From positions 1-64,000 of the forward strand of contig JACPZS010000100.1 in assembly GCA_016195385.1 (NCBI GenBank): a stretch of 64,000 bases of DNA. Direction: 5' to 3'. Origin of the DNA: Verrucomicrobiota bacterium (lineage in GTDB: Bacteria; Verrucomicrobiota; Verrucomicrobiia; Limisphaerales; JACPZS01). Of the stretch, positions 26,015 to 59,908 are shown piece after piece. Position 1 is the first letter of the stretch. Each line of letters opens with the position of its first letter. The position numbers and the translations under genes were made by a program. The notes beneath the pieces are model-generated. The model was not told the origin of the DNA, searched no databases, and saw nothing but the letters and a program-made list of their open reading frames with translations.

Positions 26015-29000
26015 TCAGTCTTGCGGCACGGCACGGTAGAAGCACTGACTCATGTGGCTCGCCATGGAATCGCGCAATTGGATTAGGCCGTCTCTCGCGA
26101 CGAAAACACCGACATCGCTCCAGTGCCGCAAATCAGCCGACGCCTGGACGAGAAAACTGCGTCCAGTTTCAGCGGGAAATGAAATCAAGCACTCACCGTC
26201 GCCAACAAGCATCAAACAGCTCGGCGGCGCAAAATTCGCAACGAAATTGTCCCCGCCAGCCACGCCGACCTCCTGGCCATCAAAAGCAGCTCGGCCGGAG
26301 AAAACGGCGTTATTGTTCAACGCCGGCGGGTTATTCAAATGGTAAAACAATGAACGCGTTGCTGGTTCGTGGAACACGCCCCACCGAATCGTTCGCGAAG
26401 ATTCGTCGAAAACGCCGTCGCTGCTGATTTCGGAAATTGCCCAGCCTGTGGGGATCGATTCTTCGACTGCGTAAGCTGCCGCGAACGGCGACGGCGTAAC
26501 AAGCAGTTCAATTTCAAGTTCATCACCAACAGGCGACTTTGCACCGATGAACCGTTTGACTGAATTGGCTGCCCTTAACTCCGTTGAAGCGCCAATGCCG
26601 TTCTCCGTCACCGACTGCACTCCTGGCCCTTTCTTGTTCACCCACCAGAGCGGTGCCGGTCCCGCCTGCGGATCGAAAACGTAATCCTCGCCATTCTTCC
26701 ACAGTTCGCCGGCGCGCGTCACATAGTTCAACGGGATCGGATTCGGTCCGATGGGCCATGCCTCATTCTTCTTCCACGCGGCGGCGTATGCGGTCAATTC
26801 GGCAAGCGTGATGCGGTGGTCGGCGGGGTCGATATCGGCGGGATGCAACTAAAATGTTCCAAGCGTGTCGTCACCGACGACTGCGCTTTGCACGCCATCG
26901 GATGATGCGTTGCCGTTGAATTTTTTCGCACCGGTTTCTTTCGCCGGCGGAGTCACTTCGTAGGTCAACGCGCGCGGTTTGCTGTCGAAGAACGGGCCGA
27001 ATTTCACGCGCCCGTGCGCCGAATCGAACACGCCGCCATCACTGATCGCGCTCACGATCCAGCCCGCCGGCGGTTCGTCTTCAACGGCATGAGTCACCGT
27101 GTTTTCATTCGGCCCGGTTTGCAAAATCACCTGCAACGCCTGCCCCGGCACGTAGCCGGGTGGCAGTCGGCGCTTCACGAAAGGAACGGTTGGCACAGCC
27201 TGGACGATCACGACCACCGCCGATGATGAGATGGCCATGTCGCCGCCGAGGATCGCAGAAGCAACGAGCTTGTAAGTGCCGGGTGGAACATTTCTCCATA
27301 CGAATCCGTAAGGCGGAGCCGTGACCACGGCAAGGAATTGGTCGCCGATGGAAAAGCTGACTTGATCGACCCGCTCCGCGGCGGCGGTAATTATCGCGGT
27401 AACCGGGATGTCGCTTCCAGATGGAAACACTACTCCGTTCTTCGGACTGCTGATCTCAATGGCAGGCCTTGGATTCGGCACTGGCGCGTCAAGAATCGTG
27501 ATGGTCGCGCTCTTCGGCGAACCGACGAAGTAATCATCCTCCGGCCCTGGCTTCACGATGAAGACCAATTGAGTCAACGTCACAATCACGGTTTCATCGC
27601 CTTCGGAAATTTTGTCGGGAATCGGCACGACTTTGATTTCCACCTCGTCTTCGCCAGCAGGAATGACGGCTTCACCAGAAAGTTTTTCGTAGTCCACGCC
27701 GTTCTGCGCGGAACCACTCACCGAGTACCGCACGTTGAGTTTCGTGCGCGGCTCGCCCGTCCGCGAGATTTTGAAACTGCCAGGATTCTTCGAGTTCGCC
27801 TCCGCAACCGTTTTGTCCTTGGCGATGATCGTCACCGTCGGGGTAAGATTTTGTTCGACGACTTTAATCGTGATGGGCGCGGACTTCGTGGTCGCGCCTT
27901 GATCGTCCTTCGCCTCCGCGGTCAATTTGTAACTCCCGGCTTTGACGTTGTGCCAGGTGATGCGGAACGGTGATTTGGTGTCCACGCCCAGCAAATTTCC
28001 GTCGGCGAAGAACGAAACCGAAACGACTTTGCCATCCGCATCCGCTGTTGCGGCCTCGATCACCAAATTCGCGGGCGCGACAAATATCTCACCGTCTTTG
28101 GGCACGGTGATGTCTACTTTCGGTGGGATATTCGTGCTTGGCTTTTCCGTAATCGTGACAGTGGCTGAATCCGGCTGGCCCACGGTGTAATCATCCTCCG
28201 GTGGCGGCTGTTGGATGAAAACCAGTTGCTGAAGTTTGAGCGTGACGGTTTCGTCGCCTTCGATGGCTTTGTCGGGCACGGGCACCACGTTGATGTTTGC
28301 CGATGCCGCTCCCGCCGGAATGACCACCAAGCCGGAGAGTTTTGCATAGTCCACGCCGTTACTTGCCGTGCCACTGACGGCATAGCGCACGTTGAGTTTC
28401 GTTTGCAGACTCCCGGTCCGCCGCACGGCGAATTTCCCGGGCGCTCCTGGGTTCAATTCCGTGGCCAACGGATTCGTCGCGGTGATGGTCACAACATTCG
28501 GAACCCGCTCCGCCAGCACGCGAATGGCGACCGGCACCGAAGTCGTGGTCGCTCCCTGATTGTCCGTCGCGATCGCGGTCAGCAAATACACTCCGGGCGT
28601 GCTCTTCTTGAAGCTGAGTTGAAAAACGTCAATCGGTTTCGCACTGGCAGGATTATTTGTCGCGACGCCGAGCGATTTCCCGTTCGCAAAAAATTCCACG
28701 GACTTGACGGTTCCGTCTGGATCTTGCGCGCTGGCGGTAACTTGAATTTCCGCGCCAGCCTGAAAAAATTGCCCGTTCGTCGGCGAGAGAATATTTACCC
28801 CCGGCGGCAGAGTCACCGCCGACTTGGCGTCGAAAATCGTGACGGTTGATTTGGGCACCGTTCCCAGCAACGCCCGGACGCGGTCGAATTGGTATCGCCA
28901 CGCCGAAGCACCGTGACCGTCACGGTCGAATTCGTTTCACTCACCAAAAAATGAGCCGTCGCAAACTCCAGCACATTCGTTGTCGGCGCTGGAATCGGCG

Positions 29001-30621: not shown

Positions 30622-30981
30622 GTGCCATATTTCATCATCCTACCAGCCTATGTTGCGCTCCTGCTATTCCTCATCATTGCAGCGGTCGTCACGCGCTGCG
30701 TTGCGAGGTGGCGCGCGGCTAGCGGCTACATCGTTGGCGGCACAGTCGGCACTTTGCCCGGCTTCATCATCGCCAACGTCATCGTTACGCTGGCGGGCAT
30801 CTTGCCTGTCTTGGTCACACAGAAGATTTCACCGCCGCAGTGGTTGCAGCAGGTCGTTGCCATCATCGTCGGGTTCATTCTCATTCTCGGGCCGTTCGTC
30901 GCCTCAGCCATTGGCGTCGTCCTCGGATTCGCAGCCGGGGCGTTCTTTGTCCTCAAGCGACGGAGGAGACGTGCGGCCTAA
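30622..30981 (+). CDS. Cassette 1 ORF: small membrane protein
   Basis: 119 aa, GTG start 20 nt after the start of the R' box; several TM segments; stop codon lies inside the attC R'' box. Confidence 0.65.
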   Translation: MPYFIILPAYVALLLFLIIAAVVTRCVARWRAASGYIVGGTVGTLPGFIIANVIVTLAGILPVLVTQKISPPQWLQQVVAIIVGFILILGPFVASAIGVVLGFAAGAFFVLKRRRRRAA

Positions 30982-31068
30982 CCATGCGCTGCAGCGAACC
31001 CGGCCATCGCGTCCAGGTTGCAAGCGAACGCCCTCGTGGGCCGGGTCGCTGAGCTTGGGTCGTTAGGC
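30976..31068 (+). repeat. attC recombination site
   Basis: R'' GCCTAAC / R' GTTAGGC (7-bp complementary); L'' CAGCGAACCCGGCC / L' GGCCGGGTCGCTG pair over 13 bp with a single bulged A. Confidence 0.85.
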
Positions 31069-31335: not shown

Positions 31336-31429
31336 ACTTAACCATGCGCTGTTACCTAACCCGGCCATCGCGCTCCGGTTGCAAACGAACGCCCTCGTGG
31401 GCAGGGTCGTCGAGCTTGAGTCGTTCGAC
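31336..31429 (+). repeat. Second attC-like site (degenerate)
   Basis: R'' ACTTAAC; core CATGCGCT...CCCGGCCATCGCG..GGTTGCAA.CGAACGCCCTCGTGGGC..GGGTCG shared with attC1; 3' boundary GTTCGAC deviates from GTTRRRY. Confidence 0.65.
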
Positions 31430-31641: not shown

Positions 31642-31902
31642 ATGAACATCGGTTGGATTTACAAGGATGGCGAAGTGATTGAACTTCCGTCGCTCTCGGC
31701 CGTCATCCACAAAGAGGATACCTGGCACGTCTCCACCTGCCCGGAATTGGGCGTGGCCAGTCAAGGCAAGACCCGCAAGGAAGCGTACGCCATGCTGGCG
31801 GAAGCCGTGGAACTCTGGCTGGAAACCGCCAGCTCCAAAGAGATCAAACGCCGGGTAAAATTGGGCGGCAGCGTTCAGCCCCTCAAATTGGCTCATGCCT
31901 AA
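31642..31902 (+). CDS. hicB: HicB-family antitoxin
   Basis: AVIHKEDTWHVSTCPELGVASQGKTRKEAYAMLAEAVELWLE is the HicB fold signature. Confidence 0.85.
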   Translation: MNIGWIYKDGEVIELPSLSAVIHKEDTWHVSTCPELGVASQGKTRKEAYAMLAEAVELWLETASSKEIKRRVKLGGSVQPLKLAHA

Positions 31903-32119
31903 ACTTCGTCCGCTTTCCGCTGCCGAAGTCGGCCGGCTTCTTGGCAAGCATGGCTTTGCGTTCGTGCATCAACGTGGCAGTCATCTCATCTACCGCAGAC
32001 AGTTGCCGGCGGGCGACAGCGCCACCGTTCCCGTTCCCAACCGGCGCGAAATTCCCGTGGGCACGCTCAAATCCATCATCAGCCTGAGTGGCTTGGACGA
32101 AATGTTGTTCCGCAAGTGA
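31895..32119 (+). CDS. hicA: HicA-family toxin
   Basis: LSAAEVGRLLGKHGFAFVHQRGSHLIYRRQ...VPVPNRREIPVGTLKSIISLSGL. Confidence 0.87.
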   Translation: MPKLRPLSAAEVGRLLGKHGFAFVHQRGSHLIYRRQLPAGDSATVPVPNRREIPVGTLKSIISLSGLDEMLFRK

Positions 32120-34488: not shown

Positions 34489-34905
34489 ATGAAACTGCGC
34501 CTCCTGCGTTTCGCGTTGTTCGCTTCGGCCATCGCTTGGGGCGTGTCGATTTTCGGCGTCGTGCTGCCGTGGGAGCGCGCGGAAGCTCTGCTTGAAGGTC
34601 TCGGCGCGAGGCCGGTTCCGCACGATCCGATGCTCGATTATTGGCTGCGCATGGCTTCGGGCGCGTTCGCCTTGGTCGGCGCGATTTACCTGCTGCTCGC
34701 GCTCCAACCGCGACGATTTGCGAGCATCATCCCGGCGATGGGCTGGCTCATGTTGGTTGAAGGCGTTTTCCTTTTGGTTCACGGCGTGCGGCTCGGCCTG
34801 CCGCCGTATCCATTTTATTTCGACACGAGTTTTTGTTTTGCCGCCGGTGGTGTTATTGTGGGCTGCGCGAACGCAGCTCCATCGCCAACGAAGTCCAAAT
34901 GTTAA
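34489..34905 (+). CDS. Hypothetical membrane protein
   Basis: MKLRLLRFALFASAIAWGVSIFGVVLPWERAEALLEGLG; TM segments; its 3' end is duplicated at 35462. Confidence 0.65.
   Translation: MKLRLLRFALFASAIAWGVSIFGVVLPWERAEALLEGLGARPVPHDPMLDYWLRMASGAFALVGAIYLLLALQPRRFASIIPAMGWLMLVEGVFLLVHGVRLGLPPYPFYFDTSFCFAAGGVIVGCANAAPSPTKSKC
34831..34892 (+). repeat. Direct repeat copy A (3' end of the 34489 gene)
   Basis: 62 bp, 3 mismatches to 35462-35523; first 41 bp identical. Confidence 0.9.
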
Positions 34906-34990
34906 AATTCCCCATAAACTCGCAGGACTGTGCGAGCGTTGCTTCAAAAGCGAACAGCCAGAGACGAGAGCACTTCATGGCTCGGCCTGG

Positions 34991-35185
34991 TCAATCGCCC
35001 GGTGGAATTGGCACGGAGAGATTACGACAGATGGAACGTGCCAGATGTTTTTTGATTTCGTTGTGCCGAGGGATGGATTCTTTGCGTCCCGTTTGTGGAT
35101 TGCTCCAAATTGAGTGACTGCCGCCTTCGCGCACCGGGACACATCCGTGTTCTTGCAGATGACCGAGCAACGCCCGGCGTTTCAT
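34991..35185 (-). CDS. hicA: HicA-family toxin
   Basis: MKRRALLGHLQEHGCVPVREGGSHSIWSNPQTGRKESIPRHNEIKKHLARSICRNLSV. Confidence 0.87.
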   Translation of the reverse strand: MKRRALLGHLQEHGCVPVREGGSHSIWSNPQTGRKESIPRHNEIKKHLARSICRNLSVPIPPGD

Positions 35186-35400
35186 GTCAGAAGCAGTTCT
35201 GCCGTTTCCGCTTTGGGATCGAGTCGGAAAACTTCTTCGCGTTCCGTTTCCAACATGAGTTTTACAGCTTCGGTGAGATCATGAAGACATTCTTCTTTGG
35301 TCTCCCCTTGACCATTTGCGCCAGGCACTTCGAGGCAGGTCGCCCAAAAACCACCCTCGCCCGGCTCACCGCGATGAACAATGGCTGTAAATTTTTTCAT
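35182..35400 (-). CDS. hicB: HicB-family antitoxin
   Basis: MKKFTAIVHRGEPGEGGFWATCLEVPGANGQGETKEECLHDLTEAVKLMLE; overlaps hicA start by 4 bp. Confidence 0.87.
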   Translation of the reverse strand: MKKFTAIVHRGEPGEGGFWATCLEVPGANGQGETKEECLHDLTEAVKLMLETEREEVFRLDPKAETAELLLT

Positions 35401-35461
35401 GCAGATGTTCATACTCATTCCCGCTGGGAAAGTGAATTGTTTTCGGAAGCCAGGATGCCTG

Positions 35462-35523
35462 TTTTGTTTTGCCGCCGGTGGTGTTATTGTGGGCTGCGCG
35501 AATGCAACTCAATCGCCAACGAA
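35462..35523 (+). repeat. Direct repeat copy B
   Basis: TTTTGTTTTGCCGCCGGTGGTGTTATTGTGGGCTGCGCGAATGCAACTCAATCGCCAACGAA, near-copy of 34831-34892. Confidence 0.9.
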
Positions 35524-35539
35524 ACCAGAATAAATTTTT

Positions 35540-37008
35540 ATGCCTTCTCCCAAACTGAGCACACCGCCGTCGCCCGAAGAACTCCAGCGCAAGCTCCAGG
35601 AATTCTTGAGCGCACAGTTTCCCAACGCGCATATCGCCGCCACAACGACGGAAACAAGCGGCGAACCCGAAGCGCCGGCGAGCGAATCCAAACCGGTCGA
35701 ATTCGCGTTCAACTACAAGCCGCGCGACGTGACGGCGCACCTCGACCGTTTCGTGATCCAGCAGGACGAGGCGAAGAAAGTTTTGAGCGTCGCGCTGTGC
35801 GATCACGATCACCACGTCCGGCTCGCGCTCGCGGGCCACGAGTCGCCGAATTACGCGAAGCAAAACATCATCCTCGTCGGCCCCACCGGCGTCGGCAAAA
35901 CGTACCTCATCCGCTGCGTGGCGGACTTGATCGGCGTACCGTTCGTGACGAGCATGGCATCATTTACATCGACGAGATCGACAAGATCGCCGCGGCGAGC
36001 AACGTGTCTGGCCGCGACGTGAGCGGGCGCGGCGTGCAGACAAACCTGCTCAAGCTCATGGAAGAAACCGAAGTGCCGGCGCGCTCGACGAATGACATCG
36101 CTGGACAAATCCAGGCGATGATGGAGATGCAGCGCGGCGGCAAGAAATCGCCCGCGACGATCAACACGAAACACATTCTCTTCGTCGTCAGTGGCGCATT
36201 CGACGGACTGGAAAAAATCGTCCGCCGGCGGATGCGCGAGGCGACGATTGGTTTTTCGGCGACGGAACGCGCGTTGGAGAATGCCGAGAAGTGGCTCGAC
36301 CAGGCGCAGACGCGGGACTTCATCGACTTCGGTTTCGAGCCTGAGTTCATCGGTCGCCTGCCCGTGCGCGTCGTTTGCCAGGCGCTCGCGGTGGACGACT
36401 TGTTTCATATTCTCAAAACTTCCGAGGGCAGCATCATCCGGCAATACGAACAGGACTTCGCGGCGTACGGCATCGAAGTGCTCTTTCGCGACGAAGGCTT
36501 GCGGCGCATCGCCGAACTGGCGGGCCAGGAAAAAACCGGCGCGCGTGGCTTGATGACGGTTTGCGAAAAAGTGTTTCGCGAATTCAAATTCGAGCTGCCC
36601 TCGACGCTCGTGAAGCGCTTCATCGTGTCGCGCGAACTCGTCAACGATCCCGCGAGCGCGCTGAAGGAACTGCTGGCCGAGCACGCGAACCAGGAACGCG
36701 AAGTCGCGCGCCAGCTCGTGCATGAATTCGCGCGGCGCTTCCACGAAACGCACGGACTGAAAATGCGTTTCACCGACGAAGCTGCCGACACGCTGGTGTC
36801 GCAGGCGCTGCGCGAAGGCAAATCAGTGCGCGATTTGTGCGCCGCGAAGTTCAAGGATTATCAGTTCGGATTGCGACTCATTTCACAGAACACCTCCCAA
36901 ACGGAGTTCGTGCTCGATCGCGACGCTGCCGAAACGCCGGACAAAGTCTTGAGCGATTGGGTCGTGGCCAGTTATCGCCAAAGCGGCAAAAACGCGGAGA
37001 TGAAGTAA
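35540..37008 (+). pseudogene. ClpX-like AAA+ ATPase without Zn finger, with internal deletion plus frameshift near 35945-35955
   Basis: Frame 1 ends ...QNIILVGPTGVGKTYLIRCVADLIGVPFV; other frame resumes EHGIIYIDEIDKIAAASNVSGRDVSGRGVQTNLLKLMEE... to RQSGKNAEMK*; the pore-loop (GYVG) segment is missing. Confidence 0.8.
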
Positions 37009-57959: not shown

Positions 57960-59261
57960 ATGAAGCCCGACAAAAGTCGTTCTCCAAAAAACAGAAAGCC
58001 GGCGGCCAAAGCTGTTCCCAGTGCCGCCAAACCAGCCGCGCGCGCGGCGAAGAAAACGGACAGCGCCGTTCGCGCCGTTTCGGCTCAATCCGCATCCCGC
58101 AAAAAGCCCGTCAAAATTCCCGCACTACTGCTGGAAGGCGACACCGCGCCGACGCCCGCCGCGAGCGGGCCGGGCCAACGCTATGCGCTTGGACCGGGCA
58201 GCGCGCCGCCGCATCTGCGCGCGGAGGATTTGCCGGCGGAATTGCCCGAAGCCTACGGCACCAAGGCGCTGTTGCTCACCGCGCGCGACCCGCACTGGCT
58301 CTACGCGCATTGGGATCTCACGCGCGAACAACTCCGCCACTACAACGCGCTTTCGCGCGACCGCCATCTCGTCGTGCGCGTTTTTCTCGACGTGCCCGGC
58401 GGCCAGCCCTTCGCGGAAGTACATGTGCATCCGGAATCGCGCAACTGGTTCATCCACGTCGGGCGCGGCGGCGCGAAGTTTTTTGCGGAACTCGGCTACT
58501 ACGCGGCCGATGGCGCGTGGTCAACGATCTCAAGTTCCAAAGCGACGCTGACGCCGCCGGACGATGTTTCGGCGGATGCCTCGGCGCGATTCGTCAACAT
58601 CCCGCTGGAAGTTCCGTTCGCAGAAATTCTCCGCGCCGTCGAAGAATCCGTCGGCGAAAGCAAGCCGCTGGCGGAGGCGATTCACGAATTGCGCGCGACG
58701 ATTTTTCCCGACTTGCCGGAAGTCGCCGCCGCCGCGCTGCCCGCGCGCTGGACGCCCGCTCAGGAACGCGCGCTGGCTCAGGCCGTGAGCATGGACGAAG
58801 TGCGGCGCGTGTGGATCGGTTCGCTCGAAATCACCGAGTTGATTCGCCGCCAGCTTCGGCACGATGTTTCGTCGATGGCCGCCGCGCAGTTCTCTGCGCC
58901 GACCTCGCCCGCGCGCGCGCTGGGCAGTGTTTCAAGTCCGTTCGGCGGAGCGGCGGAGCGCAAGCAACAATTCTGGTTCAACGTCAACGCGGAGTTGATC
59001 ATCTACGGCGCGACGGAGCCGGACGCGCGGGTCAGCATCGGCGGGCGGCGTATCAAACTGCGCAAGGATGGCACGTTCAGCTATCGCTTCGCGCTGCCGG
59101 ACGGCAAATACGAACTGCCAGCCGTGGCGGTGGCTGCCGACGAGAGCGATGGCCGCGCCGCCGTGCTCCAATTCAGCCGCGAGTCGGATTATCACGGCGA
59201 AGTCGGCGCGCATCCGCAGGACGCCGCGCTCAAGCCGCCGCGAGTCGAGAATGTGGGTTAA
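57960..59261 (+). CDS. DUF4912 domain protein
   Basis: LPEAYGTKALLLTARDPHWLYAHWDLTREQLRHYN... HVGRGGAKFFAELGYYAADG; GH57 gene downstream. Confidence 0.8.
   Translation: MKPDKSRSPKNRKPAAKAVPSAAKPAARAAKKTDSAVRAVSAQSASRKKPVKIPALLLEGDTAPTPAASGPGQRYALGPGSAPPHLRAEDLPAELPEAYGTKALLLTARDPHWLYAHWDLTREQLRHYNALSRDRHLVVRVFLDVPGGQPFAEVHVHPESRNWFIHVGRGGAKFFAELGYYAADGAWSTISSSKATLTPPDDVSADASARFVNIPLEVPFAEILRAVEESVGESKPLAEAIHELRATIFPDLPEVAAAALPARWTPAQERALAQAVSMDEVRRVWIGSLEITELIRRQLRHDVSSMAAAQFSAPTSPARALGSVSSPFGGAAERKQQFWFNVNAELIIYGATEPDARVSIGGRRIKLRKDGTFSYRFALPDGKYELPAVAVAADESDGRAAVLQFSRESDYHGEVGAHPQDAALKPPRVENVG
59155..59256 (+). repeat. Direct repeat copy 1 (3' end of DUF4912 gene)
   Basis: 102 bp, 4 mismatches to 59783-59884. 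Confidence 0.92.
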
Positions 59262-59304
59262 TAACATTACTTGAGGCCCATGCGTTGCTTGATAAACTGC
59301 CCGC

Positions 59305-59541
59305 GTGCCGGAAGTCTTGCGCGTACGTGGTTTTCGCTTTTTCTTCTTCAGTCGAGAAGGATTTGAGCCGCGTCATATTCACGTCGAGCGTGCCGAGAAA
59401 TACGCCAAGTTTTGGTTGGATCCGGTGGCGCTGGCCGAGTCGCGGTCGTTTCGCAGCCATGAGTTGACCGAGTTACGGCGCTTGATTGAAGAACATCGAG
59501 AGGAGTTTATAGATGCCTGGAATGAACACTTTAATCGTTAA
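59305..59541 (+). CDS. DUF4160 domain protein
   Basis: MPEVLRVRGFRFFFFSREGFEPRHIHVERAEKYAKFWLDPVALAES. Confidence 0.82.
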   Translation: MPEVLRVRGFRFFFFSREGFEPRHIHVERAEKYAKFWLDPVALAESRSFRSHELTELRRLIEEHREEFIDAWNEHFNR

Positions 59542-59761
59542 GCCGGTTGCCGACGTGGTGGACGTGTCGTTCAGCGAAGATTCAATCATCGTCATTCTTG
59601 CGGATGGACGGCAAGTGTCAGCGCCACTGGAATGGTTTCCACGTTTGCGGCGCGCGACCCCCAAGCAGCGACGGAACTGGCGCTTGATTGGCGGCGGCGT
59701 AGGAATCCACTGGGAAGATGTGGACGAGGATATTTCCGTCCGCAGTTTGTTGGCGCAGTGA
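59513..59761 (+). CDS. DUF2442 domain protein
   Basis: DVVDVSFSEDSIIVILADGRQVSAPLEWFPRLRRATPKQRRNWRLIGGGVGIHWEDVDEDISVRSLL. Confidence 0.85.
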   Translation: MPGMNTLIVKPVADVVDVSFSEDSIIVILADGRQVSAPLEWFPRLRRATPKQRRNWRLIGGGVGIHWEDVDEDISVRSLLAQ

Positions 59762-59782: not shown

Positions 59783-59884
59783 GCGCCGCCGTGCTCCAAT
59801 TCAGCCGCGCGACGGATTATCACGGCGAGGTCGGCGCGCATCCGCAGGACGCCGCGCTCAAGCCGCCGCGAGTGGAGAATGTGG
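59783..59884 (+). repeat. Direct repeat copy 2
   Basis: Encodes VLQFSRATDYHGEVGAHPQDAALKPPRVENVVQ*, an alternative DUF4912 C-terminus. Confidence 0.92.
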
Positions 59885-59908
59885 TTCAATAAGTTATTAG
59901 GTGCCTCA

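Follow-up and report, generated by a model that had tools for sequence, protein, structure and literature searches.

The end of a small membrane-protein gene in the window (the whole 64,000-nt stretch of DNA analysed here) is present twice, with a hicB-hicA pair between the two copies, and this arrangement recurs with many toxin-antitoxin (TA) families and many core genes across Verrucomicrobiota. The account that we consider probable is a recombinase-free insertion of TA modules with long target duplication, followed by reshuffling through recombination between gene ends.

Duplicated gene ends in the window

The features of the two cases found in the window are given in Table 1. In the first case, the two copies of the gene end align over 62 bp with 59 identical positions (95%), the first 41 bp without a mismatch, at an offset of 631 bp, exactly as the preliminary description had reported. 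The E value of the pair in a BLAST comparison of the window with itself (2.6e-18) rules out a chance origin of the repeat. The host frame is open in both copies, which read FCFAAGGVIVGCANAAPSPTKSKC (copy 1) and FCFAAGGVIVGCANATQSPTKPE (copy 2), each followed by a stop. The host ORF is real: it has homologues in up to 52 of the 293 genomes of the order, the strong ones mostly at 50-65% identity. Two further observations of the preliminary description hold as well, namely that there is no host ORF upstream of copy 2, and that the copies enclose only hicA and hicB, both on the minus strand, with no recombinase gene.

Table 1. Features of the two duplicated gene ends in the window.
Feature	Position	Strand	Evidence or remark
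Intact host gene for a 138-aa small membrane protein, with copy 1 at its end	34489..34905	+	ORF and homologues
Copy 1 of the duplicated 3' end, within the intact host gene	34831..34892	+	Self-BLAST E 2.6e-18
hicA toxin gene	34991..35185	-	Pfam HicA_toxin 2.4e-11
hicB antitoxin-like gene	35182..35400	-	Start set where homology ends; Pfam weak
Copy 2, orphan 3' end	35462..35523	+	Frame open to stop 35531-35533
Downstream ClpX-like AAA gene, interrupted, about 105 nt lost near 35955	35540..37008	+	
Second host gene, DUF4912	57960..59261	+	Pfam 3e-22
Second case, copy 1 of the gene end, 110 bp, 95%	59155..59264	+	
DUF4160 gene, TA-like cargo	59305..59541	+	Pfam 6.7e-19
DUF2442 gene, TA-like cargo	59522..59761	+	Pfam 1.2e-21
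Second case, orphan copy of the gene end	59783..59892	+	

The stop codon that closes copy 2 is separated by 6 nt from the start of the ClpX-like gene (an ATG), a spacing typical for operon neighbours, and for this reason we take copy 2 as the native tail and the insert as the newcomer. Copy 2 is thus probably the original host tail, displaced, in a family that is represented by one genome and offers no close relative with an empty site for the locus. The mismatches between the copies are concentrated at the 3' end, a crowding that decay and a foreign donor fit equally well. No further copy of the window repeat was found elsewhere in the source genome. In one homologue of the host gene (L068), the 3' end of that homologue recurs about 2.5 kb further downstream. 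The ClpX-like gene has lost the GYVG region with its missing segment and is frame-shifted relative to the orthologue L092, as a pseudogene or through an assembly error.

The enclosed pair combines a HicA domain with a short adjacent HicB partner, and by these features it would be a HicBA type II TA module, with a predicted toxin activity of HicA. The hicB gene adjoins and overlaps hicA, has homologues in many genomes, and finds a weak UPF0150-like match (0.0073) among curated models. Its homology to other genomes begins at an ATG near 35400, and the start listed at 35418 probably lies too far upstream. Among about 15 genomes the homology of hicBA ends at the ORF boundaries (the start of hicB and the stop of hicA), which leaves no recognisable element end to cut. 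At the window locus we found no pair of terminal inverted repeats and no conserved ends of a transposon, and the hicBA region has no DNA match in plasmid and phage collections. In the second case, the last 110 bp of a DUF4912 gene are repeated behind it and enclose a DUF4160/DUF2442 pair.

The window contains further repeats. An attC-like site of 93 bp (GCCTAAC...GTTAGGC, 30975-31067) and a degenerate second copy (31339-31425) surround a 101-aa ORF, and just past these sites lies a second hicBA pair (31642-32119, plus strand) without gene-end repeats. Several contigs of the source genome carry attC-like arrays spaced 0.3-1 kb, and integron cassette arrays seem to be present in this genome. A tandem 452-bp repeat (27473-27924 and 28130-28581, 62% identity) probably represents paralogous genes.

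Recurrence at toxin-antitoxin genes

The preliminary description proposed a search for hicBA flanked by other gene ends, and many such loci exist. We flagged a locus when same-strand direct repeats of at least 25 bp lay within 1.5 kb around a HicA gene. In the order, 33/123 HicA loci are flanked in this way, against 42/1562 control positions in the same regions. Restricted to usable loci, the figures are 33/112 for HicA and 24/315 for control genes of up to 350 aa (p 5e-8), or 20/145 when the controls are small genes only (p 0.003). Several of the flagged control genes are TA genes themselves (BrnT, ParE, DUF4160), and others fall in the repeat-rich loci L202, L208 and L231. By our judgement, about 7 of the 33 flagged HicA loci fall within repeats that are dispersed or multi-copy (L202 twice, L208, L216, L231, L238, L254), and about 26 are left once these are removed. 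In L202 and L231, hicA and other small genes lie amid many densely arrayed repeats of 50-1000 bp. In the rest of the phylum, outside the order, 13/58 HicA loci are flanked and 0/42 control genes. With DUF4160 as the starting point, 9/30 loci are flanked, one of which (L441) bears an attC-like motif and is to be discounted, against 0/27 cold-shock control genes. One flanked locus from outside the order (L374) lies in a single-contig genome of 4.15 Mb, so the general cause of the repeats is not assembly error.

Among genes of at least 100 aa, a copy of the 3' end is found downstream of the gene in 19 cases and a copy of the 5' end upstream in 4, and no 3'-end orphan was found upstream of its gene. 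The 23 orphan 3' copies have a median length of 101 bp and a median identity of 89%, and repeat length ranges from 26 to over 400 bp. For all but one of the 23, the end lies in a range from 17 bp ahead of the stop codon to 15 bp past it, and the exception ends 42 bp before it; under a looser overlap rule 22/23 again fall in the stop-codon range, the one exception being in L202. Mismatch gradients between orphan and host copies are too mild to separate a donor from decay. In the 5'-end version, the start of a LysR-type gene occurs in three copies (L272), and the start of a sulfatase-like gene is duplicated upstream with hicBA between the copies (L374).

The host genes in the order include purQ and purL (both by sequence), trpB, and genes for glucokinase, a D-2-hydroxyacid dehydrogenase, a MoxR ATPase, a MutL C-terminal domain protein, UbiD and a NifU-like protein; outside the order there is a guaA-like gene (L388). 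At least eight families of TA or TA-like genes are represented in the cargo: HicBA, BrnT, ParE, PIN, PemK/MazF, MNT/HEPN, RelB-like, DUF4160/DUF2442, DUF433/DUF5615 and HigBA (assigned by sequence). The first gene of the module is co-oriented with the host in 15/18 modules, the window hicBA being one of the three exceptions. Serial arrays with several copies of the gene end occur at L245, L264, L186 and L252; the order in L264 is gene, hicBA, end, DUF4160/DUF2442, end.

Empty and occupied sites between purQ and purL

The preliminary description also suggested comparing related genomes for an empty site with one repeat copy. For the window locus there is no direct empty site, because the homologues of the host gene share no conserved synteny with the ClpX-like gene and none of the relatives compared has this ClpX-like neighbour. 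Such sites are found between purQ and purL in genus g43, where purL directly follows purQ in six genomes (start at +12 to +14), while other genomes of the genus carry hicAB, DUF4160/DUF2442, HigBA or mixtures of these between the two genes. The occupied sites come with or without an orphan purQ end, and purQ-hicAB without an orphan is seen in L310 and L326.

When the insert state is placed on a purQ tree of 551 columns with weak support, which gives an indication rather than proof, 9 carriers require 8 changes, no better than shuffled labels; this points to fast turnover at purQ. In most of 8 cases, the purQ orphans are nearer to the purQ ends of other strains than to their own, on a comparison of 78 columns that is likewise an indication: the L300 orphan scores 0.91 against the purQ end of the empty-site strain L316 and 0.83 against its own. 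The four DUF4160/DUF2442 inserts at purQ have one common orphan breakpoint behind DUF2442, from which it follows that a module and its orphan can travel together.

Proposed routes of insertion and known systems

Our favoured account, recombinase-free insertion with long target duplication, would run as follows. A two-gene TA module, hicBA in the case of the window, would insert immediately after the stop of a host gene and duplicate the target over a length of about 60 bp at the window locus and a median of about 100 bp elsewhere. The host gene would thereby keep an intact 3' end, and its former end would persist as an orphan near the old downstream gene. No recombinase and no conserved element end would take part; in our opinion, incoming DNA is joined by illegitimate or homology-facilitated recombination. 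Once in place, the insert would persist, since any recombination between its flanking direct repeats would remove an addiction module. These repeats may in turn serve as short homology arms for adding, swapping and losing modules at one gene end, so that new sites would be reached by insertion and occupied sites altered by homologous exchange. The core of this account was already in the preliminary description (an insertion that spares the host C-terminus and deposits a TA pair without a recombinase), and it gains support from the recurrence at many genes and from the empty and occupied purQ-purL sites. The evidence comes from genome comparison; we saw no excised form of an insert, and no insertion was watched. 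Best cross-family HicA matches have a common neighbouring gene in 10/179 cases, with 0.85 expected, which indicates that host-gene-guided transfer occurs, yet that most moves go to new genes. In one comparison of genomes from two families (L181 and L182), the neighbouring gene has 100% protein identity over 1251 aa, as a result of recent transfer or of contamination.

Simple random insertion as a full account fails to explain why the repeats stop at the stop codon. The fit is tighter than random insertion and selection alone require, and this may favour a donor fragment that already carried both host gene and TA module. An explanation built on such a donor is homology-facilitated recombination with DNA in which the TA module already lies behind the same gene: homology within the gene would join one end, and an illegitimate event a little before the stop would join the other, with no target duplication at insertion. 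It would account for repeats that stop at the stop codon, for purQ orphans that resemble the purQ ends of other strains, for the breakpoint common to four inserts, for purQ-hicAB without an orphan, and for the same TA type at purQ in two families, and a related model has been published for the T6SS arrays of Vibrio (PMC5361080). Most related hicBA pairs, however, are at different host genes, so homology explains only a part of the spread and the first arrival at a gene needs another route; we regard the donor explanation as unlikely.

We find it still harder to credit a minimal integrative element that depends on a tyrosine recombinase supplied in trans, in the manner of islands at tRNA or guaA ends. 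The intact 3' end, the displaced tail and the guaA-like host gene would suit it, but there is no integrase between the repeats, the target genes are many and unrelated, repeat lengths vary more than tenfold, 5' ends are also affected, and no common core or cassette end is seen. That gene ends undergo ordinary local duplication, with TA genes present by chance, is very improbable: these genomes are rich in repeats and some flagged loci do lie within repeat arrays, but the enrichment at TA genes over controls is strong and none of the cold-shock genes is flanked. Least probable of all, to the point of being negligible, is an integron gene cassette with attC sites. The genome has 36 attC-like matches, one of them in the window, but the attC end boxes occur in none of the 33 flanking repeats nor in the two window cases, and the flanking repeats are host-gene coding sequence.

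Beyond recombinase-free insertion with target duplication, a wider generalisation may be offered, tentatively and at somewhat less than even confidence. On this view, gene-end cassette arrays of TA modules from many families would be a general class, integron-like but recombinase-free. The modules would insert at the stop codon of core genes, whose 3' ends would be portable homology arms for stacking and for exchange between species, and addiction would hold the modules in place.

The preliminary description likened the window locus to gene-end-targeting integrative elements. This likeness stands for the outcome, in that the 3' end of the host is restored and the old end displaced, and fails for the means: such elements need an integrase and a fixed site, neither of which is found at the TA loci, conserved cassette ends are absent, and some 5' ends are duplicated. 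Integron TA cassettes are similar in forming arrays of small TA modules separated by repeats, but those repeats are attC sites, whereas here they are copies of the end of the neighbouring gene. Mitochondrial mobile ORFs with a replacement C-terminus (Allomyces, Rhizophagus) carry a host tail and displace the old one; they are driven by a homing endonuclease, unlike the cargo here, which consists of an RNase-type toxin and an antitoxin. For the orphan immunity arrays of the Vibrio cholerae T6SS, serial insertion by homology-facilitated illegitimate recombination has been proposed (PMC5361080). Those arrays and the orphan 3' regions of Rhs genes (PMC5361080) resemble our loci in the serial additions behind a conserved gene, with older 3' parts pushed downstream; there, however, the host gene is the toxin and is replaced, whereas here it is an unrelated core gene and stays intact.

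The fixation of horizontally acquired chromosomal TA modules has been described as not yet understood (PMC2654758). These loci are a readable record of it, with empty sites, fresh inserts with identical repeats, decayed inserts and arrays. With them one can test whether repeat-flanked DNA is shielded from deletion by addiction, and whether the ends of core genes act as safe harbours and as shared homology for transfer between species. A gene-end repeat next to a small gene pair is also a signature that could find unknown TA systems, with DUF4160/DUF2442 and DUF433/DUF5615 as candidates.

Our search of the openly accessible literature turned up no account of minimal TA modules placed at duplicated gene ends. 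Insertion with long target duplication is known for restriction-modification systems. According to the passages of PMC3874152 and PMC3031569 that relate the work of Nobusato 2000 and Furuta 2010, these systems insert with a long and variable target duplication of the order of 100 bp. This is a closer precedent than the gene-end-targeting integrative elements. As far as those passages describe it, it shares with our loci a two-gene addiction module, long variable direct repeats of the same order, the lack of a transposase, and its derivation from genome comparison. It differs in that the cargo here is not a restriction-modification system but consists of minimal pairs, type II TA or TA-like, from many families, in that gene 3' ends and stop codons dominate among the duplicated targets, and in the serial arrays and the phylum in which they occur.
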